64,000 nt of DNA from Stieleria maiorica (GTDB taxonomy: Bacteria; Planctomycetota; Planctomycetia; Pirellulales; Pirellulaceae), in contig NZ_CP036264.1 of the NCBI RefSeq assembly GCF_008035925.1, positions 7,845,641-7,909,640 on the forward strand, in the 5' to 3' direction. The notes beneath the pieces are model-generated. The model made no database searches, had not been told where the DNA came from, and worked only from the letters and a program-made list of their open reading frames with translations. Shown one piece after another: positions 1,480 to 30,431 of this stretch; the first letter of the stretch is position 1, and each line of letters begins with the position of its first letter. Both the position numbers and the translations under genes were made by a program.

Positions 1480-4400
1480 CTAGTGCCCCACCGGCAGCAA
1501 GCCGCCTGACTCGGGAATCCCTACCTCCACCCAATCACGATCCAATTGCCAAGCACCGTCGATTTCATGAGTCTGATTCGTGACGCGGATCTGCTGGACC
1601 GGGGCGTTGTTTTTGGTCGGATAGTAGAACGTGTGCACCGACATTCGCCGCAGCGGGTCGAACTGTCGCACGATGCGGATCGGCAGTCCATCGATCGATT
1701 CATCAAGACTGACTTTGATGGATGTCACGGGGATATCGGGGTCGGCAAACTCAACGACGTACCTGCGCCGCGCCACGCCGTCGGCAAACGTGGTGCCCAA
1801 CGGATCGATTCGCACACTGATCCCCGATCCAACGGCGATCGGTTCGCCCGACGTCTCGTCGACCGGGATCGCCCGATTCAGCCGCGCTACTCCGCCTCCA
1901 TCGCTGGCCTGATTGCCTCCGCCGGCAATCCCCGGCGGAAGCAATTCGATCGTGGTGGATTCTTCGGCGGGCCGCGACCAAACGCGCACTCGTGCCTTCA
2001 CCGCTCGGCGCGGCCAATCGCTTGACAGCAGATTCATCACCGGGGCCGGTTCCCCCGGTTCAAACGTCGCGTCATAGAAGGTGTAGGCTTGACCGACCTC
2101 TTGCCCGTCGACCGCTACCGGTTGAATTTCAATCCAAACTGCCGAAGGACGACGTGTGGCTCGCCAAAGCGGACGGTCATCCGAACCGGCGGGATCGCGT
2201 CGCTGCCAGGAAACAGGAAACGCGACGTCATGGGGCGGTTGATGCTGCGGGCGATGCACCCGGATCACGTGATCGGTCGCGGCGCCCTGGGACGTCACCA
2301 ACCCTGCCACGGCTTCGACGTTGTCGTCGTACGGATAGTCATAGATCTCCGTGCCCGCTTCGTTGACATACAACTGGTACGCTTCGCCACCTTCCAAGAC
2401 CACCGGTTCGATCGCCAGCGGTTGCGTCGCGGCTTCCTGTGCTGCGGCGTCCACCCACTGTCTGCCTTCGTATTGCAGCGCGAACAGCTCGGGCGATTCG
2501 GGGGCAGGTGCAACGCGTGTCGGCGAGCCCAGCGTGATCGGCACGTCGGGGCGATGGTCGTCTTGATAGGATCGCAATCGATACATCCCCGGCGCCAGCA
2601 AGTTCCGCAGTGCTTGTTTCAAGTCGGTTGAACTGGCCAAAGCTTGGAAACGACCACCGGTATCACGGCTCAACCGGTCGAATTCCTGGACGGCATCTTG
2701 TTGCTGCGAGCGATCCATTCCCAGGCCCAGTATGTGCACGGGGACCGGCGTCTGCATCCAAGCCTGGCGGACGTCGTTGTCGGTCGTCAGCGACGAATTG
2801 GTGGCCGACGGCGGGATGAATTGGTAATTGGCTCCATCGGTGATCGCGATGACGTGTCGATCGGCCGTGGCGTCGTCCGCCGAAAACTCTTGAATCGCTT
2901 GCATCACGGAAAGGTACAACGGCGATTGTCCCCACGGTTTCAATCCGCCGATTTCAGGGACCAACGATTGAGCCGCTGCGAGGTCAAAGTCGCTTAACCC
3001 CAGCATCGCTTCGACATCCCGCTCCGGCGTTAATGCAGGATCGATCAGTCCGCCAAAATCCGGCCGGGTGAGTGGTCTGACCGGCTCGTCAACACTCCAG
3101 CCCAAGCGGTGTCCGAATGCGCGGACACCGACCCGAATGTTTCGCCGAAGCCCTAGATCGAACAGCATTTCTTGCAGCGCCGACTTGGCGATTTCCATCC
3201 GCGAAGCGACCTCACCTGCATTCGCTTCGAGCGATTCCGCCATGCTGGCCGAGCAATCCAGGACAAACACGACTGACAGCTCGTCCCAGGGACCGTTCAG
3301 CGTGACTTCGCTTTTCTGGTACCGATGCGGATGGACATCGATCTTCACACCGCCCAGTTGTTCCAGGTTCAAGGGGCTGCCGTATTCATGGCCGCGAAAA
3401 ACGGCTTGTGCTTTCAACGCCAATCCCGCACCAGATACCTCCGCCGGCAAGACGACTTGATAGTGAGCATTGGACGTGGGCAGCGTCACCGCATCAGAGG
3501 GTTGGATGGATTCAAAATCAATCCGCTGCGATTCGCTACGCACCGACACGACGGCGGTTCCCTGCGGTGGCGCGAAGGCGTTTTCCGGTTCGGATCGGAT
3601 CACCAGCAATGACCTGATGTCGTCCTGGGGATCCAATTGAATTGTCCGCGCCGAGGTGGTCGACAGCCAGCCAGGAAGGAATTGACGACTCGCTTCCAGC
3701 TGTGATCGGGCCTCGGCAAGTTCAACGAGTCGTTCACCGCCGGACGCCGAATCAATCCCCTGGCGGTCCAATTCGGCGACCGATGCCAGATAGTCTGTCG
3801 CGGCAAGATCGTAAAACGGACGCTCGCCACCGGCCGGTCCCCAAAAATCAGCCAGGGATCGCTCGGCATGCCACATCAACAGCGCCTTGATGTCGATGTC
3901 GCGAAGCAGCGCGATCGGATCGTCGGCTGGGCGAGGAAACCAGATCGATGCGGCGGCTCGCGTTCGACGCGCTTCGGTGGCACATCGGTTTCGTTGACCC
4001 GACAACGTCGTCTCGACACCCATTCCTTGCATCTGACGCTCGACAGAATCCAGAAATGATGCGATCGGCGTGTTGGCGGCATCACCCGCGCCGCCCGTCG
4101 TCTCGCCGAGCAATAAATCCAGCGGATGCCGTTGCCAGCTTTCCAGGCGAGCGGAATAGGCGAGTTCAGATGATGGAATCGAATCGGCTTGGTCGTCGTC
4201 GCTGGGCGGTTCCAGGTTGGCGTGAACACGTGTGGTCAATTCGTTCATCGCAGTCCGCAGATCACGTCGGGACTCCCAATTGACCAAGGGGACGGACAAG
4301 ACGGCTTGGATCTCTCCGACCGTCTCCAGCTGATTGGTCAGACTTTCGCGGATCAGTTCACGCGTCCGCAGGGTCAGTTTTTCCTGCAGGCTGTCGATCG

Positions 4401-6447
4401 TGGGGCGGATTTTTTCCTCCGCCAACGCACCGATGCTCCGCAGGGATTGAACGACCGTTTGGTCGTCGATCGAGGTCGGCATCGCGTCGAGTTCGGCGGC
4501 AAGACGCTCGGTTTCACCGATCAACGGCACGATCACGTTTTCAATGTCGTCTTTCGTTTCCGCGGGATCCGATGCGCGGTCCGGGTGGGCGATCCACTGT
4601 GCGTAGTAAGGCGCGAGCGCCATCGATCGATCGCTGATTTGTGATGCGGTGATTGCCGTTGTCAGCGCGCCCATCGATGCGGTGAGGCTCGATTGTGTTT
4701 CTTGAAGACTTTCGGCCAGGCCCTCTTGCTGACGCAGAAACACGCGGTCTTCTGCCATACGACGCGATGCGTCTGCCGGCGCCAGCAACCATCGGGTCCA
4801 ACGATGGACGCGAAGGTCTGCGGGGATCCCATCGTCATCACGCGGGACCGTTCGGTCTTCGATCTCACTTTGCAGCGTCAGTAACGTGCCCAACACGTCC
4901 GCTTGTTGCCACAACCGTGGCGTCTGGTAGCGATCTAACATTCGGGCAAACTGCGTGCTGCGATAGTCCGACGTCGCAAGCTCCTCAAATTCTGCCCGAA
5001 CGCTCGAAAGCAGTCCGGCGTTTGGCCGGGTGGAAAACTCTTGCAATCGATCACGAAGCTGCGCGCTTGAAGTCATGTCCTGCGTGCCGAAAAACTCCGC
5101 CAGCGGCAGCGAGTGGACACGCAGCGCACGTGGCAGCGGCGGGCGGTTGCCCGAGACCAGCGAATAGGCGTTTGAATAGGTTGGCGATTGCGGCAATCGG
5201 GCCATCCGGGTTTCAATCGCCTTGATCTCGCCGACCACGCGATTAAACGTCCGCTTGGCCAAGGTTTGATAACCCTTGCCGGCGGTCGCCAGTTGCTCCA
5301 GCCACAACAGACTGTGTTCCAAGTCTCGGAACGCGATCGGTTCGCGGCGATAGAGTTGTTGTTCGCGATGCTCGTCCAAAGATCGCCAAAGTGAGTCAAG
5401 CTGGGCATCCGAAATCGTCGGCCCAGATCGACTGACTGTGGGGCGAGCGGTCAACTGGTTCAATCGCTCCGGATTCAAACTCCGCGTCAGGTGAAAGTTC
5501 GAATCGGCATGGACCTTCATCAGGACGGGCGTTTGGCGATCACCGCGGCTACGCCGTGCCCACCAACTGACCTGAGTTTGAACGTAACGGTGAAGCTCGA
5601 CAAGGTCGACCCATCCATCGCCGTTGCCATGGTGTGACACTTGATCGGCGGCGCCGGCGAGTCCCAATTGCAGGAAGTGCCCGAACACTGATCCCGCCAG
5701 ATCTGCTGAAACATGGGCCGTTTCGTCCGATCCGGCCGACAACATCACCGCCAAATCGACCTTGGTCTTTTCCTTCGCCACGCGTTCGGCAAACGCGGCT
5801 TGGACCTCGTCGGCGAATCGATTCACCCGCAGGCCGATGTTCCAATTGACCTGCATGCGGTTGCAGTCGAGGATCAGGAGCGTCTTGCGTTTCGCGCCCA
5901 GCGGCTCGATGCGGTCCAGCAGTTCGTCCAAATCGATCCACGACTCGGAATCGGTCGCCGAGGCCTTGGGTGGGATCAGCCGGATCGAATCGCCACCGCC
6001 ATCGGCAACCCCGTGCAGACTGACCCAAACGATCAACGGCAATCGCCGGCTTTGCCCCTGTGCCCGCGTTACCTCTCGCTCCAAGCGTTGGTAAAAATCG
6101 GATGCTTTGAAAATCGGGGCATCATCGCCACGCACAGTGATCGTTTCGCCGTCCATGACGCCCAATTTCCCAAAGTCCTCTTTGGCCCAGGCGTTCGGCG
6201 GCAGCGGCCACGAGTACTCCGCCGCCGACAGCACCACCACCGCAGTGCGTTTGGGGGAGAGCAACAACAGCCAAATCAGCCAGGCGAACAACAGCAATGC
6301 GGCCAGCAACAGCACGCCCCACATCACCTGCCGCCAGCGCCGCCACAGGATTCCGAAAACGTCGGCGCCGCCGGCGCGATCGCCCTGCCAGACCTTGCGA
6401 TCGGGTTGGCTGGCCTTGCCGGCGGGCTGAGTGGATGAAGTCGACAT
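1480..6447 (-). CDS. giant membrane-anchored caspase-like (C14) and vWA protein
   Basis: About 1655 residues when started at ATG 6447 (an upstream-extended start at 6534 would overlap the preceding gene). A single strong membrane segment (about residues 42-64) follows a short cytoplasmic tail. Next comes a caspase-like fold: WVSLHGV carries the candidate catalytic His (about 145) and LLILDCNRM the candidate Cys (about 195), at normal dyad spacing for peptidase C14. A long helical middle of roughly 700 residues has no recognised domain. Around residue 1055-1260 is a von Willebrand A domain with MIDAS DCSAS. The C-terminus is beta-rich. It lies 40 bases after the HEAT-like lipoprotein gene and probably shares its transcript. 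Protease activity is inferred from the dyad only; the target is unknown. Confidence 0.75.
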   Translation of the reverse strand: MSTSSTQPAGKASQPDRKVWQGDRAGGADVFGILWRRWRQVMWGVLLLAALLLFAWLIWLLLLSPKRTAVVVLSAAEYSWPLPPNAWAKEDFGKLGVMDGETITVRGDDAPIFKASDFYQRLEREVTRAQGQSRRLPLIVWVSLHGVADGGGDSIRLIPPKASATDSESWIDLDELLDRIEPLGAKRKTLLILDCNRMQVNWNIGLRVNRFADEVQAAFAERVAKEKTKVDLAVMLSAGSDETAHVSADLAGSVFGHFLQLGLAGAADQVSHHGNGDGWVDLVELHRYVQTQVSWWARRSRGDRQTPVLMKVHADSNFHLTRSLNPERLNQLTARPTVSRSGPTISDAQLDSLWRSLDEHREQQLYRREPIAFRDLEHSLLWLEQLATAGKGYQTLAKRTFNRVVGEIKAIETRMARLPQSPTYSNAYSLVSGNRPPLPRALRVHSLPLAEFFGTQDMTSSAQLRDRLQEFSTRPNAGLLSSVRAEFEELATSDYRSTQFARMLDRYQTPRLWQQADVLGTLLTLQSEIEDRTVPRDDDGIPADLRVHRWTRWLLAPADASRRMAEDRVFLRQQEGLAESLQETQSSLTASMGALTTAITASQISDRSMALAPYYAQWIAHPDRASDPAETKDDIENVIVPLIGETERLAAELDAMPTSIDDQTVVQSLRSIGALAEEKIRPTIDSLQEKLTLRTRELIRESLTNQLETVGEIQAVLSVPLVNWESRRDLRTAMNELTTRVHANLEPPSDDDQADSIPSSELAYSARLESWQRHPLDLLLGETTGGAGDAANTPIASFLDSVERQMQGMGVETTLSGQRNRCATEARRTRAAASIWFPRPADDPIALLRDIDIKALLMWHAERSLADFWGPAGGERPFYDLAATDYLASVAELDRQGIDSASGGERLVELAEARSQLEASRQFLPGWLSTTSARTIQLDPQDDIRSLLVIRSEPENAFAPPQGTAVVSVRSESQRIDFESIQPSDAVTLPTSNAHYQVVLPAEVSGAGLALKAQAVFRGHEYGSPLNLEQLGGVKIDVHPHRYQKSEVTLNGPWDELSVVFVLDCSASMAESLEANAGEVASRMEIAKSALQEMLFDLGLRRNIRVGVRAFGHRLGWSVDEPVRPLTRPDFGGLIDPALTPERDVEAMLGLSDFDLAAAQSLVPEIGGLKPWGQSPLYLSVMQAIQEFSADDATADRHVIAITDGANYQFIPPSATNSSLTTDNDVRQAWMQTPVPVHILGLGMDRSQQQDAVQEFDRLSRDTGGRFQALASSTDLKQALRNLLAPGMYRLRSYQDDHRPDVPITLGSPTRVAPAPESPELFALQYEGRQWVDAAAQEAATQPLAIEPVVLEGGEAYQLYVNEAGTEIYDYPYDDNVEAVAGLVTSQGAATDHVIRVHRPQHQPPHDVAFPVSWQRRDPAGSDDRPLWRATRRPSAVWIEIQPVAVDGQEVGQAYTFYDATFEPGEPAPVMNLLSSDWPRRAVKARVRVWSRPAEESTTIELLPPGIAGGGNQASDGGGVARLNRAIPVDETSGEPIAVGSGISVRIDPLGTTFADGVARRRYVVEFADPDIPVTSIKVSLDESIDGLPIRIVRQFDPLRRMSVHTFYYPTKNNAPVQQIRVTNQTHEIDGAWQLDRDWVEVGIPESGGLLPVGH

Positions 6448-6487
6448 GGATTTGTCGTCCGTGGGGCTCGTCGCTCGTGGGGGAACG

Positions 6488-7486
6488 TTACTCGCGTCGA
6501 ACCGAATCGTGATCGGATTGCAGCGTCGGATCAAAACTTTCTGGCAACAAGAATCCGGCGGTCGTCGTCACAGTGGCTGTGGTGGCGTCCGCTTCGGTGT
6601 GACCGACCACCGCGATGCCTTGATCGGCCGTCGCATCGTTATTCGGCACCACCTCTTGAGCGGCGACGTCACTCGATTTGGATTCCGGCATCACGGCGTT
6701 TGCCGCGACCGCCGGAGTGACCTCACCGGCCGGCGTGGGAACTGCATCGACGGACGTCGGGCCTTCCATCGGCGCGGTCCCTCCGTCAATTGGTGTTGCG
6801 CCGCTGCAGGCACAGATCACCAGACGGGCTCGGCGACGCACATAGTGTGACGGTTCCACGAATTCATTGCAGTCGTCTTTTTCATAGACAATCTCATACA
6901 GCTTTTTTAGCAGCTTCGGGCTGCAACAACTGTTCGGACAAATGCATCCCCCTTTGCCGGTCACGGCTTCGCGCAGACCATCCAAAGTTGCGATCCGAAT
7001 GTCTTCGCTGCAATCGTCCAGCGCTGCCAACAGTGCGTCCTCGGCAGCCTCATTGCATTTCCCGCATCCTTGTTTAGCAAGGAACTTGATCGCTTTGGCT
7101 TTCTGCGGCGCTTTGTCTTGTTCGATCTTGGCTTCCGCGGCGGCTTTTTCCGCCGGGCTGGCATCGGGGCCCAAGTTGGACGGGTCCGTGATCGACTTGA
7201 TCGGCGGTCTTGCCTCCAAACCCGGGAAACGTGTTCCCAACCGATTGCGGACACGCCCGCCGACCGTCCGAATCCCGCCAAAGACCAAGTCCAGGCCCAA
7301 GAACTGCGGCAGCGTCATCCCTGGGGCCGCCGGGGCAGCCACGGCGACAATCGTGGTCGCACCGGCTTGGGCCGACGTCGGGGCTGCCGGCGCAGGCGCC
7401 GCCGGGGGAACCGACGCACAGCCGGCGCAAGTTGCCACTGCGATCAAGCAAACGCCGATCGAAAAGCGGTTGCGACTGTTGGTCAT
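6488..7486 (-). CDS. HEAT-like repeat lipoprotein
   Basis: About 332 residues from ATG 7486, chosen because a hydrophobic signal ending in CAGC with a following Ser/Pro/Ala-rich stretch begins there and a GAAGAG Shine-Dalgarno lies upstream; the longer frame to 7537 adds a basic tail in front of the signal. The mature protein has a Pro/Ala linker, then a segment with KFLAKQGCGKC...ALLAALDDCSEDIRIATLDGLREAV that resembles HEAT/armadillo-type helices, with clustered cysteines (CGKC, CICPNSCC) that could bind metal or form disulfides. The C-terminal part is low complexity. It precedes the caspase/vWA gene on the same strand, so the two are probably made together at the cell envelope. Function unknown. 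Confidence 0.65.
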   Translation of the reverse strand: MTNSRNRFSIGVCLIAVATCAGCASVPPAAPAPAAPTSAQAGATTIVAVAAPAAPGMTLPQFLGLDLVFGGIRTVGGRVRNRLGTRFPGLEARPPIKSITDPSNLGPDASPAEKAAAEAKIEQDKAPQKAKAIKFLAKQGCGKCNEAAEDALLAALDDCSEDIRIATLDGLREAVTGKGGCICPNSCCSPKLLKKLYEIVYEKDDCNEFVEPSHYVRRRARLVICACSGATPIDGGTAPMEGPTSVDAVPTPAGEVTPAVAANAVMPESKSSDVAAQEVVPNNDATADQGIAVVGHTEADATTATVTTTAGFLLPESFDPTLQSDHDSVRRE

Positions 7487-20996: not shown

Positions 20997-21908
20997 CTAG
21001 CCTAGATGAACGTTGTTCTGGATTCGCAAACGAACCTCATCCAGCGCCTGCTCTAAGGCCTGTTCCATCTCGTGGTAATTGCCTTTCTTGTTCGCGCTAA
21101 CGGTGATCTTCCAGCCATCTTCGGTTAAAAACGTCTGCTTCAATCCGCGTCGCTTGGGGGCAGACTTTCCTTTGCGTTCCCGAACCTTGCCTTGCATTTT
21201 CTTTACGGAGGTTGATCCCGTTAGGCTTTCGCCACTGGCCAAGGCAGCTCGACGCTGTTCGTCGTTAGGAAGTTTCGATAGTTCGTATGCAGCCGTCGGC
21301 GAAAGGTCACCCGACTCAACTCGATCCTGAATGTCGACTGGAAGCTTTAGAAGCGAAAGAGACCTGGTGATTCGGGAAGGATTGACGCGAATCGCAACGC
21401 CTAGCTCTTTTCCAGTCCAGCCATTGAGTTTCATCAACTGTTCGAACGCTTTTGCCTCTTCAATCGCCTTGAGATCCTCACGCAGTAAGTTTTCAATCAA
21501 CTGCTGCTCCAGGATTTCCGTCTTGCTTAGCTCTTGCTCCTGAAACTGGCAGTTGATGCTGGGAAGACCCGCGGCTTTTGTTGCCCGATAACGGCGTTCA
21601 CCGGAAATAATGATCCACTTGTCGTGTGCTTCCGACCAGCGCACGTGAATGGGGTGCAACTGCCCCTTGTCCTGGATGCTATTTGCTAGACGCTGAATTT
21701 CGTCATCGCTGAATTTGGTGCGAGGCTGATCTGGATCGGGGATAACGCTGTCAATGGCTACTGTTCCAAAGTTACGCAGCGCCCGTCGCCCTACGTCCTT
21801 GCTGTTGGGCACCGGGCTCAACTGTGGCTTTTGATCCACGCCGCGAATGCCCATCGACTCATCAAGCTTGTTTCGTATCTTTTCTAACGTATTTCGCGTA
21901 TTTGCCAT
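20997..21908 (-). CDS. parB: ParB-family partition protein
   Basis: 303 residues from ATG 21908, one base after the parA stop (a GTG at 21917 would overlap it). Residues about 50-140 form the ParB/Srx CTPase domain, with PDPDQPRTKFSDDEIQRLANSI, GQLHPIHVR, the GERRYRA box and ENLLREDL. A KorB/Spo0J-type HTH follows (NGWTGKELGVAIRVNPSRITRSLSLLKLP). After a basic linker, the C-terminal segment can dimerise. It loads on a centromere and partners ParA. Together with the initiator gene it marks a plasmid-type backbone. Confidence 0.92.
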   Translation of the reverse strand: MANTRNTLEKIRNKLDESMGIRGVDQKPQLSPVPNSKDVGRRALRNFGTVAIDSVIPDPDQPRTKFSDDEIQRLANSIQDKGQLHPIHVRWSEAHDKWIIISGERRYRATKAAGLPSINCQFQEQELSKTEILEQQLIENLLREDLKAIEEAKAFEQLMKLNGWTGKELGVAIRVNPSRITRSLSLLKLPVDIQDRVESGDLSPTAAYELSKLPNDEQRRAALASGESLTGSTSVKKMQGKVRERKGKSAPKRRGLKQTFLTEDGWKITVSANKKGNYHEMEQALEQALDEVRLRIQNNVHLG

Positions 21909-21909
21909 C

Positions 21910-22725
21910 CTAAGCACCCACTATCCGTTTCTTAGATTTCTCCGCAATCCGTGTCACAATCTCTGCTGCAAGGTCACGCGTCCTCTCCGCAGCAGTTGAC
22001 TTCGCACTGTAGTATTCCACTGGTTGCCGGCAAGCCAGCGAGACCTTAAACGCCGAAGCTTCTGGCACGATCGTGTCCAGCACCATTTCTTTGTAGAGTT
22101 CCCTTAATCGCTCTTCGTAAGAGCGGTGAACCAAGAGCCGTCTGTCGTATCGAGTCACCAAGTGCCCAAGTCGACGAATCGTTGGGTTAAGCTTCCTGGC
22201 GTTATCAATGGCCTGATGAACTGCGCGCAGCCCTTGTGTTCCAAAGTCTTCGGGAGGGACCGGGATCACCACGTAGTCAGCGGCAACCATCGCATTCCAA
22301 CTGCACTGATAGAGGTTCGGTGGACAGTCGATGAGGACAACATCATAACCGTCGTTTTGCTCCAGAAATTCTTTCAGAGCGTATTGTGCCAAGCCTGCTT
22401 TTTCCGGCTCTGGAATGTTGTGCCGGGCAAGATGTTGGTTGCAGGGGACAATTGAAATGCCATCGAAGTCAGTCTGAAGAATGAGCTGTTGTTGGTCGAG
22501 AAAAAAACACTCTTCATCAAACAAAGCTGCAAGCGTTCTGCCAGCTGGCAAGTTCTCGATAACTTCTGACCCAAAAAATCCCTGGCTTAGTGAACCTTGC
22601 GGATCAGCGTCGATTAGCAAAACGGAACAGCCCGATGCCGCAAATGCTCCCGCTAGATGAAAGCATGTTGAGCTCTTTCCGCATCCTCCCTTTTGATTGA
22701 TCATGCATAGCGTGATGCTGGCCAT
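21910..22725 (-). CDS. parA: ParA-family partition ATPase
   Basis: 271 residues from ATG 22725, preceded by AAGAGG; the frame continues upstream to 22794 but that extension translates the palindromic repeat. The deviant Walker A NQKGGCGKSS has the signature lysine of ParA/MinD ATPases; DADPQGSLSQGF is Walker A' and VVLIDCPPNL Walker B. There is no N-terminal HTH, so it is a short ParA (type Ib or chromosomal type) and probably does not itself bind the operator. It forms an operon with parB. Confidence 0.93.
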   Translation of the reverse strand: MASITLCMINQKGGCGKSSTCFHLAGAFAASGCSVLLIDADPQGSLSQGFFGSEVIENLPAGRTLAALFDEECFFLDQQQLILQTDFDGISIVPCNQHLARHNIPEPEKAGLAQYALKEFLEQNDGYDVVLIDCPPNLYQCSWNAMVAADYVVIPVPPEDFGTQGLRAVHQAIDNARKLNPTIRRLGHLVTRYDRRLLVHRSYEERLRELYKEMVLDTIVPEASAFKVSLACRQPVEYYSAKSTAAERTRDLAAEIVTRIAEKSKKRIVGA

Positions 22726-22755
22726 GGTACCTCTTGAAATGGCTTGCAACTTGGC

Positions 22756-22783
22756 AATTGCATTATGCAATTCTGCGTAAGTT
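22756..22783. promoter_or_regulatory. 17-bp palindrome, copy 1 (candidate centromere or operator)
   Basis: AATTGCAT-T-ATGCAATT (22756-22772) is a perfect 8-1-8 inverted repeat, followed by CTGCGTAAGTT. The same 28-base block occurs at 23092-23119 with one mismatch. The block lies 31 bases upstream of parA. Candidate roles are a parS-type ParB site or an operator. Confidence 0.65.
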
Positions 22784-23091
22784 GCCGTAATCACTTTCGA
22801 TACGCTGGCATAAGCAGGTAAGGGTCGTCAAGCAAATTCTTGGTGCCAGGGAGTATGTACGTGTCGTTTGCGTCGCACTTTGTGCAACTCAAAAGCATGC
22901 CGGGTTCGCATCAACGGTTATTCAAGCACGTACCTAGAAACGCAAAAGGAACTTGCAAGGCCAGCCTGTGGCGATTCTGCCTAGACAAGGCAAACGCTCA
23001 AGCGTCAACCCCGGACCTCCGTAGGCAACTCCTCTGACGCTGACGAATGAACCTCCTTCTCGGGAGTCGACGCGCTACCACCTGCAGACTG

Positions 23092-23237: not shown

Positions 23238-24500
23238 ATGGCTAAACTTAAAAAACAACAACAAAGAACCACCGGCGTCGGTCAGCTCTCACTGGTCGAG
23301 CATGCCCTCTGCCCACTCGATTCCCGCAATTCTTTAGTCGAAAATCTTGTCTACGATGCCGAGTATTTCTACAGCTATGGCAAGACTCGAAAAGCTGCCC
23401 TAGCTCGCGTGTTCTGTCCACTGGGATTGTCCGCCTCGGATGAACTCTACCTTTGGGGCCTGCTTGCCCTGACAATGCTCCAGCCAGAGCCAGAATCTGA
23501 GCTTTTTGCGACACCGCACTGGTTTCTAAGACAACTTGGTGTCATCAATCAAAATAGCAAGCGTGGCGGGCGCCAATACAAGCAGTTTGCGGAAGCGATC
23601 AAACGCTTGTCGGCTGTGACCTACTTGAATGACGGATTCTACGATCCTGTGCGTGGAGAGCATCGCCGAGTCAGTTTTCGCTTCTTCAGTTACAGCCTAC
23701 CAGTCGACCTGAAGTCTTGCCGGGCATGGCGAATCAGCTGGGACCCGATCTTCTTTGAAATGGTCAAGGACTCGGCAGGGCACTTTCGCTTTGACCTAGC
23801 CGTCTACCGTGAGTTGGATGCTGCAAGCAGACGGCTGTTTTTGTTTGTCAGCAAAATTCTCTCGCGCAGAACGCGAGTCAACGCATTGCGATTAGAGCAT
23901 GTCGCGGTGAATCTGCTTGGATTTAGCTCCTCACTCCAAACTCGGGAGATGAAAGCCAAGGTCAGCCGATGCCTCAAGAAGCTCGTAGAGCTGCACGTGC
24001 TGGCTGATGTTGAGATATTCAAGACTTCACCTGGTAAGTACTTCGTTCGCCTCTCTCGGGGCCCATACTTTGCTCAGAAGCAAAAGCACAGTTACGCACC
24101 GGCCCCGCAAGACTCCCCTCTATTTGAAACTCTGCAGGCAATCGGCTTTGAAGATGCGGCGGCGGCGAGATTGATCAACCGCTTCCCTACCCGCGTTCTG
24201 GCTGAATGGGCAGACATTACCCAGGCAGCTCAAGAACGCTTCGGCAATGAGTTTTTTCACAAGAGCCCAATGGCATATTTGGTTGATTCCGTATCTAAGG
24301 CGACAGAAGGCAATCGCTCAGCACCTGACTGGTGGCACGAACTGAATCGTTCAGAGCGTCAAAAGCACGAGATGAATGCGGCCAGTGAGAAGTTGTTTTC
24401 CCGAATCCGCACCGAGCTCTTCGGTGGTGTTGCCGATTCCCCAAAAGCCCCAGCCAGTAACACCAAAGTGACGCACATTAGTGAGCTATTCAAAGGCTAG
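23238..24500 (+). CDS. RepA-like plasmid replication initiator
   Basis: 420 residues. The central part (LFATPHWFLRQLGV ... KQFAEAIKRLSAVTYLNDGFYDP ... VSFRFFSYSLP ... ISWDPIFFEMVKDSAGHFRFDLAVYRELDAASRRLFLFVSKIL) fits the winged-helix replication initiator proteins of the RepA/RPA group: paired winged helices with a short-residue DNA-reading helix. The N-terminus is basic. It is divergent from parAB across the palindrome pair and is followed by iteron-like repeats and DnaA boxes, the expected neighbourhood of a plasmid initiator. The exact family needs a profile search. Confidence 0.8.
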   Translation: MAKLKKQQQRTTGVGQLSLVEHALCPLDSRNSLVENLVYDAEYFYSYGKTRKAALARVFCPLGLSASDELYLWGLLALTMLQPEPESELFATPHWFLRQLGVINQNSKRGGRQYKQFAEAIKRLSAVTYLNDGFYDPVRGEHRRVSFRFFSYSLPVDLKSCRAWRISWDPIFFEMVKDSAGHFRFDLAVYRELDAASRRLFLFVSKILSRRTRVNALRLEHVAVNLLGFSSSLQTREMKAKVSRCLKKLVELHVLADVEIFKTSPGKYFVRLSRGPYFAQKQKHSYAPAPQDSPLFETLQAIGFEDAAAARLINRFPTRVLAEWADITQAAQERFGNEFFHKSPMAYLVDSVSKATEGNRSAPDWWHELNRSERQKHEMNAASEKLFSRIRTELFGGVADSPKAPASNTKVTHISELFKG

Positions 24501-24826: not shown

Positions 24827-25197
24827 GACCGATTGTAGTCGTCGCGTTTGTTGCCAACACTCTCAGAATCCAGTTGCCTATTGATCCCCAATGCATACTG
24901 TTTAGCATTCCAAGCACACGCTTTGGGCGCCCTGATTTTCCCAGGAACCGTCGAGTGTATTCTTGCTTGCGAATTGCATCCTGTACGGTAATTTTTTCTG
25001 CGCGGATTTGGGATCGGATCCCTGATTCCGTGGCTGTTGATTACGTCAAACGCGTTGCTGCAAGTGAGCTGCAAATTCAGCTCTCACGTGGTGACGGGCA
25101 TGACAGACTTTAGCAGACAGTTGCACTTGGTAAAGCCAAGCTCACCACTTGGCCTAAGAGAGCAGGAGTTAACCACCTGCTACGCAACTGGCCCGTA

Positions 25198-25257
25198 GAG
25201 CCGGATGCATCGAGAGGTGCTTGTCCGGTTCGACGGAGGCTTTGTCGAGTAATCCGT
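25198..25257 (+). ncRNA. group II intron domain V and candidate domain VI
   Basis: Bases 25198-25231 fold exactly as a group II domain V. The 14-base 5' arm starts GAGCCGGATGC, a GAGA (GNRA) tetraloop sits at 25212-25215, and the 16-base 3' arm ends TCCGGTTC. This gives 9 base pairs, a 2-base bulge on the 3' side, 5 pairs and the loop, with the catalytic AGC triad at positions 2-4. The next hairpin, ACGGA (25233-25237) with TCCGT (25253-25257) and unpaired A residues near its 3' side, is a reasonable domain VI. Upstream, AGCAGG/CCTGCT (25161-25181) may belong to the same RNA. No reverse transcriptase precedes it. Confidence 0.85.
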
Positions 25258-25347
25258 TTTCTTGCTGCCGACATTCGTAAGCCGGCAGATTGTAGAAACG
25301 AGTAATCCGACAATTCGATCCGATGCAGTGACATCTTGTCTCAAGGC

Positions 25348-26452
25348 GTGCGCCTTGGGCGAGGGCGATGCGGAAAAACCTAGCGAGTTACTTCGTAGGT
25401 AATTTGTTAGGCCGTCATAAACCGAAGTAGGTGAGGTGTTTTCGATGAAAATGCGTAATCCTGCACAAGGGGTTCGAAGTCTCGGACTTCGTTCAACTTG
25501 TCCGGCGTGGGGAGTTTCGAGCCTGGCAACAGGCCGAACCGGAGCGGACTTTCTCCGGAGACCGTGGGCAAATCTCACGGCTGCGAATAGCTCAACCATG
25601 AAAGGCCTGCAAAGGCTTGCCGGTGAATCTTGCGAGAGACGGTGCCGAATTGCGAAAGACCTTGGTCGATGGGTAAGGGGATGCTTCTACGTTCGGTCCC
25701 CAGAAATCGTCATGAACTGTGTTCATGATGCAAACTGTGCTGGTTTTGGCAAACCAACATACGGCCAACGTTCCTCCCGTTTTGCGCGGGATAGCGACGT
25801 GAATCGCAAGGTGGAGGTTATGACTAACGCAGGAAGCTCTGTGGTTGCCGGCTGGTTACCGGTGCCTGGGTATGAGTCATCCAGGTGTTTCAAAAGCCAT
25901 AGAGTGGGAGTGTGGCCTGAGTAGAAAGTCAGGTGGTTTCTTCGCGGGAGCGGGGATTCGGCTTGAGCGATTTTTCCTGCAAGGCAGTGGGAGGTCGTTG
26001 ACGTCGCATCAGGTGGTGCTGGCGGCAATGTCACGACGAAAGGGCTGACGGGCAGCATGTAGCTGTTGAAGTTCTGTACGGGCGATCTCGTTTTTGAAAT
26101 CGCCGGTCCTTGGAAGGGCGCCAAGCGGTCACAGTTGGCTAGTGTGGGAGCACTGGCCAGTTGTGGCGGCGAGCCAACGGCGGTACCTCGGAGTGCGTTT
26201 GGACTCCGGCGGTGCCGTCGCAGGTTTTTTGTGTGAGTGGTTCCATGAATTGGCGGGGCACAATTCAATGAATGTAGTTCCGGCAACTGAAATGGAATCC
26301 TGCCATGAAGCTCACCATAGTGCTTTGGCTTTGATGCCAGGATGCACTCCGGCGATGCTTTCTTCGCGTACTCGCTGCGTTCTTTGAAAAACTGCGTTTC
26401 GGCTTTGCGGGAGCTTGTGCCGATGAATCAGGCTCCCATCTTCTATTCTTGC
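25348..26452 (+). ncRNA. group II-like 5' region (domains I-IV), downstream of its own domain V
   Basis: The segment begins GTGCGCC at 25348, the usual group II 5' splice sequence, with a small CGCC/GGCG hairpin next to it. It continues with many strong hairpins: CGAAGT/ACTTCG (25475-25491), GCCTG-GCAA-CAGGC with a GNRA loop (25521-25534), CCGGAG/CTCCGG (25539-25558), CCGTG/CACGG (25562-25580), CATGAA/TTCATG (25711-25727), CCTGG/CCAGG (25865-25885), CCTGA/TCAGG (25916-25933) and CGGAGT/ACTCCG (26189-26208). No domain V occurs further downstream, so the only one is at 25198. The open frames here are not protein-like. It leads straight into the ORF at 26467. The 3' boundary and sub-domain assignment are not resolved. 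Confidence 0.6.
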
Positions 26453-26466
26453 GAGGAGGTTCGAGT

Positions 26467-27120
26467 GTGGGCGGGTATCGAGCGGTTGTAACTTCAGTGG
26501 ATGGATTTGTTCAACAGATAGCATGCTCGTATCTGCGGCATGGCTACTGGTTCTACGTGTTGGGGAGAATCCCGAGGGACAAAGACCCGGCCATCATCGA
26601 CACCAAGCTTATCGAGAAATACGGAATTGCCATCTCCGAATCCACTCGGGCACGACGCAAAAAATCTGGGTTTGCCAATCTCCAGTACATTCGACACGAA
26701 TCGTTGTTCGTCATGATGGCGACCAAAGGGAAACACAAGTTCTTTGATGAGGAATCTAAACTCATCCGCGACATCCGGCGTGTGCCCATTCGTTACGCCG
26801 GTTACTCGATCAGTTACAGACCCGGCGGTCGAAAGAAAGACGGCAGCCGCGATGACAAATGGCATTCACATGTCGCGATGGAGCGTCGACAATATCTTGA
26901 GCTAAAAGCCTGGTTTGCAGAACGTGCCCGCCGAGATTCACCCAAGGCACTTGCATTGGCGTTCTATCGGCTGCCGATTGCTCCGTATGCGCCGATCCGT
27001 CGCCAGCTGCTCATGATCCATCGCGAAGTAAATCGTATTAGGAAAAAAGCTGGCAAGCCTCCGCTGCCAACTGAAATCCTTCCCTTGAAACGCAAAATCG
27101 TCAAGCCGTTTGGCCGATAA
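26467..27120 (+). CDS. intron-associated hypothetical protein (not a reverse transcriptase)
   Basis: 217 residues from GTG 26467, chosen because GAGGAGG lies 7 bases before it; an upstream TTG at 26449 has no ribosome site. The protein is basic, with segments SVDGFVQQIACSYLRHGYWFYVLG, RRKKSGFANLQYIRHESLFVMMATKGKHKFFDEE and a C-terminal PYAPIRRQLLMIHREVNRIRKKAGKP. I see none of the reverse transcriptase motifs (no YxDD), no HNH and no clear LAGLIDADG. I recall similar uncharacterised planctomycete proteins but no family name. Its position in the domain IV place of the structured RNA suggests a maturase or endonuclease-like helper; that is inference. Confidence 0.7.
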   Translation: MGGYRAVVTSVDGFVQQIACSYLRHGYWFYVLGRIPRDKDPAIIDTKLIEKYGIAISESTRARRKKSGFANLQYIRHESLFVMMATKGKHKFFDEESKLIRDIRRVPIRYAGYSISYRPGGRKKDGSRDDKWHSHVAMERRQYLELKAWFAERARRDSPKALALAFYRLPIAPYAPIRRQLLMIHREVNRIRKKAGKPPLPTEILPLKRKIVKPFGR

Positions 27121-27199: not shown

Positions 27200-27787
27200 T
27201 CAGTGTGCGTGGCCGCTAGGATGGTCGTGATGATCCTTAGGCTTTGAATTGTGATCAGAGTCTCCGTGTTTATGACCTGATCCAAGTGATTCCCTGAGTA
27301 TTGTTTTCTGTTGGTCCGAGAGGTCGGGTAGGCTGCGCACAAAGCTGACGATTTTCCAGATGTCATCATCAGTATGTGTTGGACCAAGTGCTGGCATTCC
27401 GGTCATGCGAAAGCCGTTCTTGATGATCCAAAACAGTTCAGCATCGCTGCGTTGGCCGAGCGATTTTGTCAGATTTGGTGCTGGAGGATTGAGACCCTTG
27501 GCGAATTCTTTTGGTGAAACACCAGGAGCGCCATGACATGCAAGGCATGTATCGGAGTAGTGATGAAAGCCAGAAGCAGTGGCTTGCGCATCACCAGCAA
27601 AAGGGTTGGACATCTTGGGGACTCTCCATGCCATTGAGCGATCGATCGCAAACTTGGCCATGGCGACCTCAGCTTCACTGGGGGGCGTTGTAGCGGCAAA
27701 ATTGATAACACCAGCGGAGATCACCAGTAGGGGAAGGGCAATCGAGATCAAAACACCGAGTAGTAATCCAGCCAAGTAACGTTTCAT
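27200..27787 (-). CDS. membrane-anchored mono-heme cytochrome c
   Basis: 195 residues from ATG 27787 (GGAG upstream; a longer frame to 27826 adds no signal). One N-terminal helix (YLAGLLLGVLISIALPLLVISAG) anchors it. The CLACH heme site is near residue 80, and the axial Met is probably in FRMTGMPALGPTHTDDDIWKIVSFVRSLP, the normal C-terminal helix of class I cytochrome c. The His-rich tail (GHKHGDSDHN ... HDHPSGHAH) is typical of metal-island proteins and could bind Cu or Ag. It is divergent from the ATPase gene. Confidence 0.85.
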   Translation of the reverse strand: MKRYLAGLLLGVLISIALPLLVISAGVINFAATTPPSEAEVAMAKFAIDRSMAWRVPKMSNPFAGDAQATASGFHHYSDTCLACHGAPGVSPKEFAKGLNPPAPNLTKSLGQRSDAELFWIIKNGFRMTGMPALGPTHTDDDIWKIVSFVRSLPDLSDQQKTILRESLGSGHKHGDSDHNSKPKDHHDHPSGHAH

Positions 27788-27971
27788 GTAGCTCCAAAGC
27801 AAAGTTTTTCTGCTTAACCGTATCATGCCCTGTTACCGTCAGCCAGAGAACGGTTTGCTGACTAATTCGCTCCGAAATCTCATCGGCTGTTCGTGCGAAA
27901 AAAACGCAAAGCACCAGCGTTTCGTCTAAGCAAACCGTTCGCTCAGCCCTTGGCTTTTCGGTGTAAACGGC

Positions 27972-28049: not shown

Positions 28050-30431
28050 ATGAGAAAAACGGACACTCAAACAATTGACCCCGTCTGCGGAATGGCGGTC
28101 GATTCGGAATCAGCGCGGTCGTCTAGCCACCAGGGCGAGAGATTCTTCTTTTGCAGCGAATCCTGCCAGCAGAAGTTTGACGATGATCCATCTGCGGTGC
28201 TCTCGAAAGCTGCCCGGAGGGAATCGAAGCCGCACGAGGTTGCTCATAGCGAACATAGCTGCTGTTCGCACGAAGAAAAGGAGTCCGACGCTAAGAAGGC
28301 CGCCAGCGATCCGACAGCCATCTACACCTGTCCGATGCACACCGAAATAGAGCAGGTTGGTCCGGGGGACTGTCCCATCTGTGGCATGGACCTTGAACCG
28401 AAGTTCGTCGACCTATCGGATGAAGGTGACGAGCAACAGTACCGGGACATGAAACGTCGGTTCTGGGTCGGAGTGGTCTTGTCAATGCCTTTGCTGGTAC
28501 TGGCGATGGGACCAATGGTTGGCTTGAATCTCGCTGAAGCGATGTCTGATCGGGTTTTCGGTTGGACGCAGCTCGCATTGGCAACTCCGGTCGTGTTCTG
28601 GTGTGGATGGCCGCTGCTGGTGCGCGGAGTGAGGTCGTTTCGTACGATGAACCTCAATATGTTCTCGTTGATTGCAGTGGGAACGTTGGCTGCGTTTCTG
28701 TTCAGCCTGTTCGTTGTGCTGTTTCCGGCGATGATACCCGAAGCGTTCTTCGAGAACGGGAAACCGCCGCTGTATTTTGAGGCTGCGGCGGTGATCATCA
28801 CGCTGGTGTTGTTGGGACAGGTATTGGAACTGCGTGCTCGGCAGCAGACTGGCGGGGCAATTCGCGAACTCATGCAACTTGCACCCGAGACGGCTCATCG
28901 CATCACGGACGATGGCGAAGAGGAGGTTGCCCTTGGGGACGTGCATCAAGGCGACAGGCTTCGCGTGCGTCCGGGCGAGAAGGTACCGGTGGACGGACGG
29001 GTTGTCAGCGGTAGTAGCAGTGTCGACGAGTCTATGCTGACGGGTGAGCCAATTCCCGTGAAGAAGGGTGAGGGTGACGAGATCACGGGCGGCACGCTGA
29101 ACCAGACCGGTGCGTTGGTTATGGAAGCGGTAGGCGTTGGCGGCGATACCGTGCTTCATCGCATTGTGCAAATGGTTGCGGAGGCTCAACGAAGTCGTGC
29201 CCCAATTCAAAAACTGGTTGATGTTGTTTCACGATACTTTGTGCCGGCGGTCATTGTCTGTTCTATAGTTGCCTTCATTGGTTGGGCTATGTTTGGCCCG
29301 GAGCCTCGCTTGGCTCATGCCTTTGTCGCGGCGGTGGCTGTTTTGATTATCGCTTGCCCTTGTGCTCTGGGCTTGGCCACACCAATGTCGGTGATGGTTG
29401 GCGTTGGACGCGGTGCGAAAGAAGGTGTTTTGATCAAAAACGCTGAAGTGTTGGAAGTGATGGAGAACGTAGACACGGTAGTCGTCGATAAGACTGGAAC
29501 TCTCACACAGGGTCGCCCTGAGTTAACGGAGATCAAGCCCATTGGGGACTGGAGCGAGGACGACGTGCTGATGCTGGCTGCCGCCGTAGAAGCACAGAGC
29601 GAACATCCGTTGGCCCAAGCCGTCGTTCGGCGAGCGAAAAACGACGAGTTGCCGGTTGCTGATGCAACTGATTTCAGCAGCATTACCGGTGGCGGAGTTA
29701 GCGCGAACGTTGATAGGCACGAAGTCTTAATCGGGAAAGCTGACTTGCTTGACAACGAATCGATTACTGGTGTTGATGTAGGGCGGGAGCAAGCAACACA
29801 GCGTCAATCCGAAGGGGCGACTGTGATTTTTGTTGCCGTTGACGGAAAATTGGCCGCTATCATGGCGATCACTGACCCCATCAAAGAAAGCACGCCTGCA
29901 GCTCTGAAAACACTGCATGAACTTGGTTTGAAGGTTGTCATGCTGACCGGTGACGCACAACCGACCGCGAAAGCTGTCGCCGAAAAACTTGGGATCGATG
30001 AATTTCACGCCGGTGTTTCACCACAAGACAAACACAACTTTGTGAAACGTCTAAAAGAAGAGGGAAAGGTGGTCGCCATGGCCGGTGATGGAATCAATGA
30101 CGCCCCAGCCTTGGCGGAATCGAATGTTGGTATTGCTATGGGAACGGGAACCGGAGTTGCGATCGAGTCAGCTGGAATAACGCTGGTCGGCGGTGATCTA
30201 CGAGGAGTTGCCGCGGCAAACAACCTGAGCCGCAAGACAATGAGTAACATTCGCCAAAACCTTTTCTTCGCCTTCATCTATAACGCGCTGGGCGTTCCGG
30301 TGGCAGCTGGGCTGCTGTATCCATTCTCCGGCGTCCTGCTCAGTCCGATGCTTGCTGCTGCTGCGATGAGTTTTAGCAGTGTGTCAGTCATCGCCAATGC
30401 ACTTCGTTTGCGAGCTGCCAAGTTGGTGTAG
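28050..30431 (+). CDS. copA: P1B-type heavy-metal (Cu+/Ag+) transporting ATPase
   Basis: 793 residues. It starts with a YHS domain (DPVCGMAV ... [12 protein letters not shown]), then a His/Cys-rich linker, then a heavy-metal-binding domain [22 protein letters not shown] (about 92-117) instead of the usual ferredoxin-like CxxC repeats. Eight membrane helices are expected. [10 protein letters not shown] (about 435) is the transport motif of Cu+/Ag+ pumps. DKTGTLT (about 480) holds the phosphorylated Asp, SEHPLA is the nucleotide-binding HP motif and [10 protein letters not shown] (about 678) closes the P domain. It exports monovalent copper or silver from the cytoplasm. The upstream palindrome implies CsoR control. 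Confidence 0.92.

Follow-up and report, generated by a model that had tools for sequence, protein, structure and literature searches.

A probable circularly permuted group II ribozyme and its adjoining protein AcpG in a plasmid-like region of Stieleria maiorica

Introduction

Group II introns are normally built in the order domain I (D1), D2, D3, D4, open reading frame (ORF), domain V (D5) and domain VI (D6). A circularly permuted (CP) class of group II ribozymes, in which D5 and D6 precede D1 and are joined to it by a linker, was described in 2021 from, among others, the Thermus plasmid pTT8 and Comamonas testosteroni (Roth et al. 2021, PMC8637638). The subject of this report is a 64,000-nucleotide (nt) stretch of the genome of Stieleria maiorica (Planctomycetota), called the window below. 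The genome is one contig of 9.89 Mb, and the window occupies 7.85-7.91 Mb of it. One locus in the window is, as the best overall explanation, very probably a CP group II ribozyme with its dedicated protein, AcpG.

Branching and circle formation in vitro are known for five other members of the class (PMC8637638). According to Roth et al., the splice borders of CP RNAs are GGGCG and NU, and a pseudoknot between the loops of hairpin P2 and D2 is special to these RNAs; the class also has pseudoknots of the P1 loop with the 3' end and of D3 with D1. The name AcpG was introduced in the same paper for TTHC007, a protein of about 260 amino acids (aa) which adjoins the pTT8 ribozyme in divergent orientation and for which the paper gives no homology to any known class. 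Unlike canonical introns, a CP ribozyme could not, in the argument of Roth et al., excise itself and reinsert as a unit, and the missing reverse transcriptase (RT) ORF led them to doubt that the class is simply a rearranged intron. The main text of that paper names Thermus, Firmicutes and Proteobacteria; Planctomycetota are not named there. A search of the open literature, with the supplements of Roth et al. outside its scope, gave among the matches listed no published account of CP introns in Planctomycetota. A CP intron of mushroom-coral mitochondria (Chi et al. 2019, as cited in PMC8637638) also back-splices, but it belongs to group I and reorders misordered exons.

The window RNA shares with the class of Roth et al. 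the order D5-D6-linker-D1, the GGGCG and NU borders, the hairpins P1 and P2 (named after that paper), the P2-D2 loop-loop pseudoknot, a linker of less than 100 nt, a nearby AcpG and an association with plasmids. It differs in length (about 1.3 kb against about 0.9 kb). AcpG lies downstream on the same strand in all two-part loci found here, whereas it is often divergent or convergent in Roth et al., and the predicted circles go down to 12 nt, against 32 for the smallest of four predictions listed there. On pTT8, the host of a published CP RNA, the elements follow one another in the order of the window and with similar spacing on the minus strand: P2 at 5944-5927, D5 at 5911-5877, GGGCG at 5794 and the D2 hairpin at 5306-5293. 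The P2 and D2 loops of pTT8 read CCCCCA and TGGGGG.

A CP group II intron on a plasmid-like island had been proposed from the letters of the window alone (the sequence-only reading). The main claim is supported by the order of the domains, the splice borders, two long-range pairings, the adjoining AcpG and the Rep-like, ParA and ParB neighbours. The splice-site coordinates had to be corrected, and AcpG had been overlooked.

Domains V and VI

In 20-32 kb of the window, the sole RNA match (cmscan, E up to 1) is to RF00029, at 25196-25324 of the plus strand, with 44.8 bits (gathering score 40). Features of D5 and D6 expected in the CP class were found here: the AGC triad, the 2-nt bulge and the GNRA loop in D5, and a bulged A in D6. 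In the alignment A5 (36 of 39 candidates; L082, L086 and L096 were excluded), 13 of the 14 D5 pairs are intact in all sequences and the remaining pair is broken in two; changes on both sides occur at 9 of the 14. The D5 of the sequence-only reading is thus confirmed by model and by covariation. No second RF00029 match was reported across the whole 9.9 Mb genome (150 of 586 first-look candidates scored) and, therefore, no normal group II intron 3' end was found elsewhere, in agreement with the earlier statement that no second D5 was found downstream.

The D6 that had been noted after D5 is present. It ends at 25324 and not near 25258, and it has an internal hairpin. Its internal loop is formed from two copies of GAGTAATCC (25247-25255 and 25300-25308), and the inner hairpin is variable. 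The 9-mer stands on both strands of the loop and could pair with itself as a symmetric internal loop; two exact copies are present in 12 of the 36 aligned loci, and GTAAT occurs twice in 29. In the window D6 ends in TTCGATCCGAT at 25314-25324, and the end reads TTC[TG]ATCCGAT in the window and eight aligned relatives. The predicted branch-point adenosine is the seventh nucleotide from the 3' splice site.

Splice sites and the predicted circle

In the window and the eight relatives, D1 opens with GGGCGATGC, which is preceded by variable sequence; wider sets agree. The 3' splice site is accordingly placed after 25324 (an AU border) and the 5' splice site before 25363 (GGGCG). GTGCGCC at 25348, which the sequence-only reading had taken for the intron 5' sequence, was rejected: it lies inside a hairpin of the predicted circle and is unconserved in the eight aligned relatives. 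With it falls the circle proposed at 25258-25347, for which the conserved borders substitute a circle of 38 nt (Table 1).

Both borders were found by pattern in 48 of 52 loci (L080, L092 and L110 have no 3' splice-site pattern, L120 no 5' splice-site pattern). The predicted circles of these loci are 12-110 nt long with a median of 32, and since the borders were located by pattern, their conservation in this set is partly by construction. Circles of 12 nt are predicted at L085 and L088 (Planctomycetota) and on a cyanobacterial plasmid of Leptolyngbya (L060); none of the 48 is shorter. Since its content is unconserved and it can be as short as 12 nt in relatives, the circle probably represents a by-product, and the ribozyme body the conserved product.

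The ribozyme body and its long-range pairings

The strong structure noticed 3' of D5 was reproduced by folding: 25363-26300 gives -405 kcal/mol (z = -8.2 against 20 shuffles). The region putatively assigned to D3 and D4 ends in a hairpin, GGGAGC...GCTCCC, near 26408-26438.

Two pairings join distant parts of the RNA. Intron-binding site 1 (IBS1), at the end of the predicted circle, pairs with exon-binding site 1 (EBS1) of D1: at three variable positions in 47 loci, 94 of 141 cells are paired against 55.5 with shuffled partners (p <= 5e-5), and 82 of 123 against 47.9 when only the 41 distinct pairs are kept. The EBS1 strings of K2D and L130, which look misread, were retained in this test. The loops of P2 and D2 have a mean longest Watson-Crick run of 4.33 against 2.97 in shuffled pairs (p = 2e-4; 45 distinct pairs from 47 loci, some misfolded P2 loop picks being kept). 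L094 (TTCGCA/TGCGAA) and Calothrix (TTAGCTA/TAGCTAA) illustrate the pairing. L113, with a doubtful 5' splice-site call, was excluded from both tests and is counted among the 48 circle lengths. The p-values of both tests overstate the certainty because the shuffles ignore phylogeny.

AcpG and its linkage to the RNA

By profile comparison, the ORF directly after the RNA (26467-27120) is AcpG, the associated protein of the CP class. It has a putative GTG start at 26467, with AGGAGG at 26454-26459. When the family of Thermus AcpGs was aligned with the family of Planctomycete, cyanobacterial and Planococcus ORFs, hhalign gave a probability of 90 and E 1.5e-6 over 167 columns. As single proteins, window AcpG and TTH_RS11295 of pTT8 (259 aa, 6164-6943; presumably TTHC007, from its size and place) showed no relation by BLASTP (E 0.024). 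The window protein, like TTHC007, adjoins the ribozyme, but it is shorter (217 against about 260 aa) and lies on the strand of the RNA. No AcpG was found in viral contigs, and blastn of 25190-25400 against phage records gave no match.

A BLAST search with 25100-26500 against 72,556 plasmids gave one match, to the D5 region of pK2D_1 from Planctomycetes bacterium K2D. On this plasmid a Rep gene (a match to Pfam RPA) is followed by 1.3 kb of non-coding sequence containing D5 and GGGCGATGC and then by an ORF of 233 aa, with small ORFs between; the 233-aa ORF is 37% identical to window AcpG. AcpG was found in 22 of 60 related genomes, the S. maiorica genome included. When 84,980 species genomes were searched with a profile, 142 relatives were found, and the best 80 were taken as loci L067-L146. 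Most of them are from Planctomycetota; others are from bins labelled Hydrogenedentes and Acidobacteria, labels which may be wrong.

The RNA accompanies AcpG in most of these loci. A strict structural D5 scan was applied to the 67 loci that have 1.5 kb or more of sequence upstream of AcpG: 47 of them have a same-strand D5 within 3 kb upstream and, in addition to these, L120 has one at 3.0 kb. The scan found no D5 on the minus strand (572 kb) and none in shuffled sequence. With R1, a covariance model of D5, D6, the linker and the 5' splice site built from 36 sequences, 32 of them from the 80 loci, the RNA was detected upstream of AcpG on the same strand in 62 of the 67 (63 of 80 overall), as well as in 22 of 24 further AcpG loci (L034-L057). 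R1 also matches plasmids of Leptolyngbya, Calothrix and K2D, all of them training members, and, outside the training set, the 5.5 kb Planococcus plasmid pA26H1 (E 1e-13). The last (L059) has four listed genes, with the D5-D6 unit and AcpG at 3075-4527, and would be a handy minimal system. The number of R1 matches was rejected as a measure of how common CP introns are in the phylum. Of 392 genomes, 40 match and only 9 reach 70 bits, and the former figure is not a CP count because canonical D5-D6 reach 15-29 bits.

A separate covariance model of the D1 core, R2, matches 68 of the 80 loci and lies downstream of R1 in all 63 R1 loci. The arrangement that the sequence-only reading had named as its refutation, with the D5-D6 and D1 parts standing apart in relatives, is therefore not general. 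Five loci match R2 only: L078, L098 and L146 are cut at the locus start, and L074 and L126 are without R1. In the 60 genomes, R2 has 22 matches in 16 genomes, each with AcpG 0.7-1.4 kb downstream on the same strand and R1 upstream, and 21 of the 22 are on contigs outside the R2 training set. GIIM-type RTs are present in 26 of the same genomes, yet R2 matches there AcpG loci only. This search is a better control than a comparison of R2 with 26 canonical RT loci, which gave no match; those loci span 1.5 kb on each side of GIIM, and D1 may lie outside. R2 is missing from six of the AcpG genomes. Five of them (G001, G004, G019, G020 and G022) have a partial or stop-containing AcpG; the last one, G039, carries a divergent AcpG preceded by R1 (L057, 54 bits).

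The distances between RNAs and between AcpGs correlate (r = 0.75, p = 2e-4, n = 39), which could be partly explained by common descent of the hosts. In sequence comparisons, the permuted order, the conservation of the splice sites, the covariation and the linkage to AcpG are all evident.

Some plasmids and genomes carry more than one copy. On Calothrix plasmid5 (L061) two same-strand CP RNAs, at 2617-2756 and 4768-4898, lie about 2.2 kb apart; both match R1 and R2, and one AcpG was found. G045:C80 has two complete AcpG/CP RNA units 15 kb apart, and G012:C1, from a genome of the same genus as the window, has three AcpG matches (3.70, 5.986 and 5.989 Mb), one of them partial and without an RNA of its own.

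AcpG as a possible relic of a group II reverse transcriptase

The three RVT_1 matches of the S. maiorica genome all lie outside the window, and therefore the window contains no intact RT, as had been stated from the sequence alone. That statement is complete only for intact enzymes: AcpG itself resembles a degenerate RT. It is reasonably likely that AcpG derives from the RT of a group II intron, has lost catalysis and has shrunk to a 217-aa maturase for back-splicing. This reading is new with the present analysis, and a search of the open literature gave, among the matches listed, no published account of AcpG as an RT.

AlphaFold (AF2) models of window AcpG and of L118 AcpG have pLDDT values of 94.2 and 94.3. 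In Foldseek searches of 350,542 PDB chains, both models found 8h2h_D first (probability 0.69 and 0.91, respectively), from an entry whose title names a group II intron in complex with its reverse transcriptase, and 9p4j_E (retron Eco8) second. Entry titles and chain lengths suggest that both are RT chains. Taken alone, the comparison of predicted folds is a hint of RT kinship, because the E-values are borderline and the TM-scores low. In a viral fold library several RNA-dependent RNA polymerases were among the matches listed, none at E <= 0.001.

A profile of 73 AcpGs, with no Thermus sequences, was compared with a profile of 35 group II RTs, and hhalign gave a score of 35.1 (P 5.5e-4); AcpG 74-165 was aligned with RT motif 5 (VRYADD), FLG and the start of the thumb. 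With 47 RTs, a set which contains the 35, the score was 34.2. The score fell to 13.0 with reversed RTs and did not exceed 24.9 with any of 150 column-permuted RT profiles. Twenty-two unrelated families, forward and reversed, against the AcpG and RT profiles gave at most 22.7 in all 88 control comparisons; these families are ORF clusters of the fetched loci, among which frame artefacts are possible, and 4 of 26 clusters were omitted (AcpG, RT, Thermus AcpG and one AcpG-matching fragment). Halves of the AcpG set scored 38.2 and 32.9 against the RTs with a common register at RYADD, and halves of the RT set, each with its own column numbering, scored 31.9 and 25.0 against AcpG. Twenty-three other RT ORFs (19 distinct) remained at the background level, 16.3. 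Early profile tests with 15-16 RTs were weak and were set aside.

At the YADD site of 66 AcpGs, the flanking Arg is present in all and the flanking Phe in 65. The first catalytic Asp is found in four and the second in none, no YxDD is seen, and some AcpGs read IRYGDWF where RTs have VRYADDF. Having lost the catalytic aspartates, AcpG should therefore not copy nucleic acid. The GIIM/maturase X domain of Pfam has no match in the 66 members. With canonical bacterial group II introns the locus shares D5, D6, the logic of IBS1-EBS1 and an ORF after D4; it differs from them in the rotated order and in having no intact RT, no YxDD aspartates and no GIIM Pfam match.

A group II-type RT fragment lies elsewhere in the same genome (G000:C1:8752688-8753269, locus L160), in a 360-aa frame with RYADD intact and a GIIM domain. 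In the genome-wide search it coexists with an RF00029 match in the window only, and it may be an RT acting in trans or an intron remnant.

Proposed reaction and origin

For the window locus we infer catalysis, a circle and a maturase role from the features described above. The transcript would carry D5-D6 (25198-25324) ahead of D1-D4 (25363 to about 26440). In the first step the branch A 25318 would attack the 5' splice site before 25363; in the second, the freed 3' end, which is IBS1 held by EBS1 (25689-25694), would attack the 3' splice site after 25324. The expected products are the 38-nt circle and a T-shaped branched RNA. AcpG, if an RT that lost much of the N-terminal half and the catalytic aspartates, would retain the RNA-binding palm-thumb core and aid the folding and reaction of the permuted RNA.

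The whole unit, D5-D6-circle-D1 to D4-ORF, may be a complete ORF-bearing intron that was rotated by a cut between the ORF and D5. Such a cut, with the old ends joined via the exon, gives D5-D6-exon-D1-D2-D3-D4-ORF, the observed layout. The rotation itself could have started from a tandem pair of introns, each copy of which lost its outer half. If this is true, CP group II introns kept their protein, the whole intron including its ORF having been rotated; the origin of the class would then be plain, and the function of AcpG directly testable. The Planctomycetota offer for genetics and biochemistry dozens of natural RNA-AcpG pairs with one gene order and tight linkage.

Alternative explanations

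The CP ribozyme may be real and AcpG an unrelated RNA-binding protein, its palm-like fold and weak profile match being convergent. This is a possibility to be kept in mind, though a rather doubtful one, and a number of results weigh on its side and against RT descent. The top two Foldseek matches have E-values of 2e-3 to 7e-3, none being below 0.001, with TM-scores of at most 0.34, and the third match of the second model is an unrelated viral capping protein. The HHalign probability is 30% with 35 RTs and 24% with 47. A smaller set of 15 RTs scored only 23.3 against AcpG, and an unrelated family whose sequence looks like ParA reached 29.4 with the 15-RT profile (20.3 with the 35-RT profile). 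AcpG has no Pfam, NCBIfam or PHROG match, and 66 members of the family have scattered weak matches only; the two matches of AcpG among PDB sequences (E 0.035 and 0.92) are neither relatives nor RTs. Thermus AcpG alone gives no signal against RTs (16.2), the resemblance being seen only in the branch of window AcpG, and Roth et al. 2021 found no homology (PMC8637638). Convergence would, however, have to account for the same top two PDB matches of two models, for scores of 34-35 where all 88 controls stay at or below 22.7, for the agreement of the AcpG halves in register at RYADD, for a signal that, of the RTs compared, only the group II enzymes gave, and for the position of AcpG after D4, the expected place of an intron ORF.

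A role of the ribozyme in the replication of plasmids or the control of their copy number, such as the processing or stabilisation of the rep transcript, with AcpG linked to replication and not a maturase, is unlikely. It would suit the Rep homologues upstream at 25 of the 85 AcpG loci examined and ParA at 12 (ParB at 2), the combination of rep, AcpG and RNA on two plasmids, that of K2D and the 5.5 kb one of Planococcus, and the one CP RNA that lies near an origin according to Roth et al. 2021 (PMC8637638). In the same paper, however, removal of nearly all of the pTT8 ribozyme had no significant influence on replication, a chromosomal copy being a caveat; 60 of the 85 loci have no homologue of the window Rep in the stretch covered, and the window copy is chromosomal. 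For the ribozyme reading itself, the points on the other side are these. D5-D6 is missing in 5 of 67 loci (L074, L098, L126, L131 and L142), in two of which, L131 and L142, an AcpG frame is present without a detectable RNA; on pTT8, R1 reaches 25 bits (E 9.7e-5), no better than canonical introns (15-29 bits), and R2 gives no match; and the EBS1 column was picked, as a weak maximum (6 of 47 votes) of a column-wise scan, from data on which the register was then tested in all 47 loci. Without the six column-picking loci, 76 of 123 variable positions are paired. A dead remnant, made of scrambled fragments of a canonical intron and with no current function, would explain the copies without detectable D5-D6 (L074, L126), but the covariation of IBS1-EBS1 and P2-D2 over dozens of loci, the AcpG linkage and the presence of the D5-D6-5' splice-site unit in 62 of 67 loci make it very improbable. 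The idea of two unrelated pieces, an orphan D5 hairpin beside an unrelated structured RNA, could appeal to the same two loci, which carry D1, and to the separate discovery of the parts; it is refuted by the relatives, in which R2 follows R1 in 63 of 63 loci and the parts pair with each other, and can practically be dismissed.

The divergent copies have features of their own. L131 and L142 have neither an R1 nor an R2 match in 4 kb upstream and may represent a diverged RNA or AcpG alone. L074 (Rhodopirellula europaea 6C) retains AcpG and most of the ribozyme, and upstream of about 2974, where D5-D6 and the start of D1 would be, nothing is alignable with its relative L073. L126 has two D1 matches (6850-7006 and 2776-2920; 100 and 21 bits), no detectable D5-D6 and a stop codon in its AcpG frame, and appears to be a decaying copy.

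Genomic setting

The CP unit travels with plasmid replication and partition genes. In the window, ParB, ParA and Rep-like genes lie upstream of the RNA (Table 1), which supports placement of the locus in a plasmid-derived island, as the sequence-only reading had proposed. The Rep-like protein has no Pfam family above the cut-off.

Table 1. Coordinates of the ribozyme, its protein and neighbouring genes in the window
Feature	Position	Strand	Basis
Domain V (AGC triad, GAGA tetraloop, 2-nt bulge)	25198-25231	+	RF00029; covarying stems
Domain VI	25234-25324	+	36-locus alignment; covarying pairs
Predicted branch-point adenosine (TTC[TG]A[TC]CC)	25318	+	Invariant in A5; predicted role from canonical D6
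Predicted excised circle, 38 nt	25325-25362	+	Conserved borders, variable content
IBS1 (GGGCGA)	25357-25362	+	5 of 6 pairs with EBS1
5' splice site, start of domain I (GGGCGATGC)	25363-25371	+	Conserved in window and 8 relatives and in A5
Domain I, end approximate	25363-25840	+	Covariance model R2 (built on 25566-25712)
EBS1 (ACGTTC), in hairpin loop	25689-25694	+	Covariation with IBS1
D2-like hairpin (CCGG-CTGGTTA-CCGG)	25848-25862	+	Pairs with P2 loop; counterpart in pTT8
Domains III and IV region, putative names from order alone	25870-26440	+	Conservation in window and 8 relatives; folding
5' element: enclosing stem 25118-25124/25184-25190, hairpins P1 (25135-25153) and P2 (25161-25181)	25118-25190	+	RNAfold of window and relatives
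P2 loop (TAACCA)	25170-25175	+	Pairs with D2 loop TGGTTA (25853-25858); covariation
AcpG homologue, 217 aa	26467-27120	+	Profile match to Thermus TTHC007-type proteins
ParB	20997-21917	-	Pfam, NCBIfam
ParA	21910-22794	-	Pfam, NCBIfam
Rep-like protein	23238-24500	+	Recurrent neighbour upstream of ribozyme

Downstream of AcpG, and judged by their translations alone, follow a cytochrome c-like ORF (27200-27826) and an ORF resembling a copper-type P-ATPase (28050-30431).

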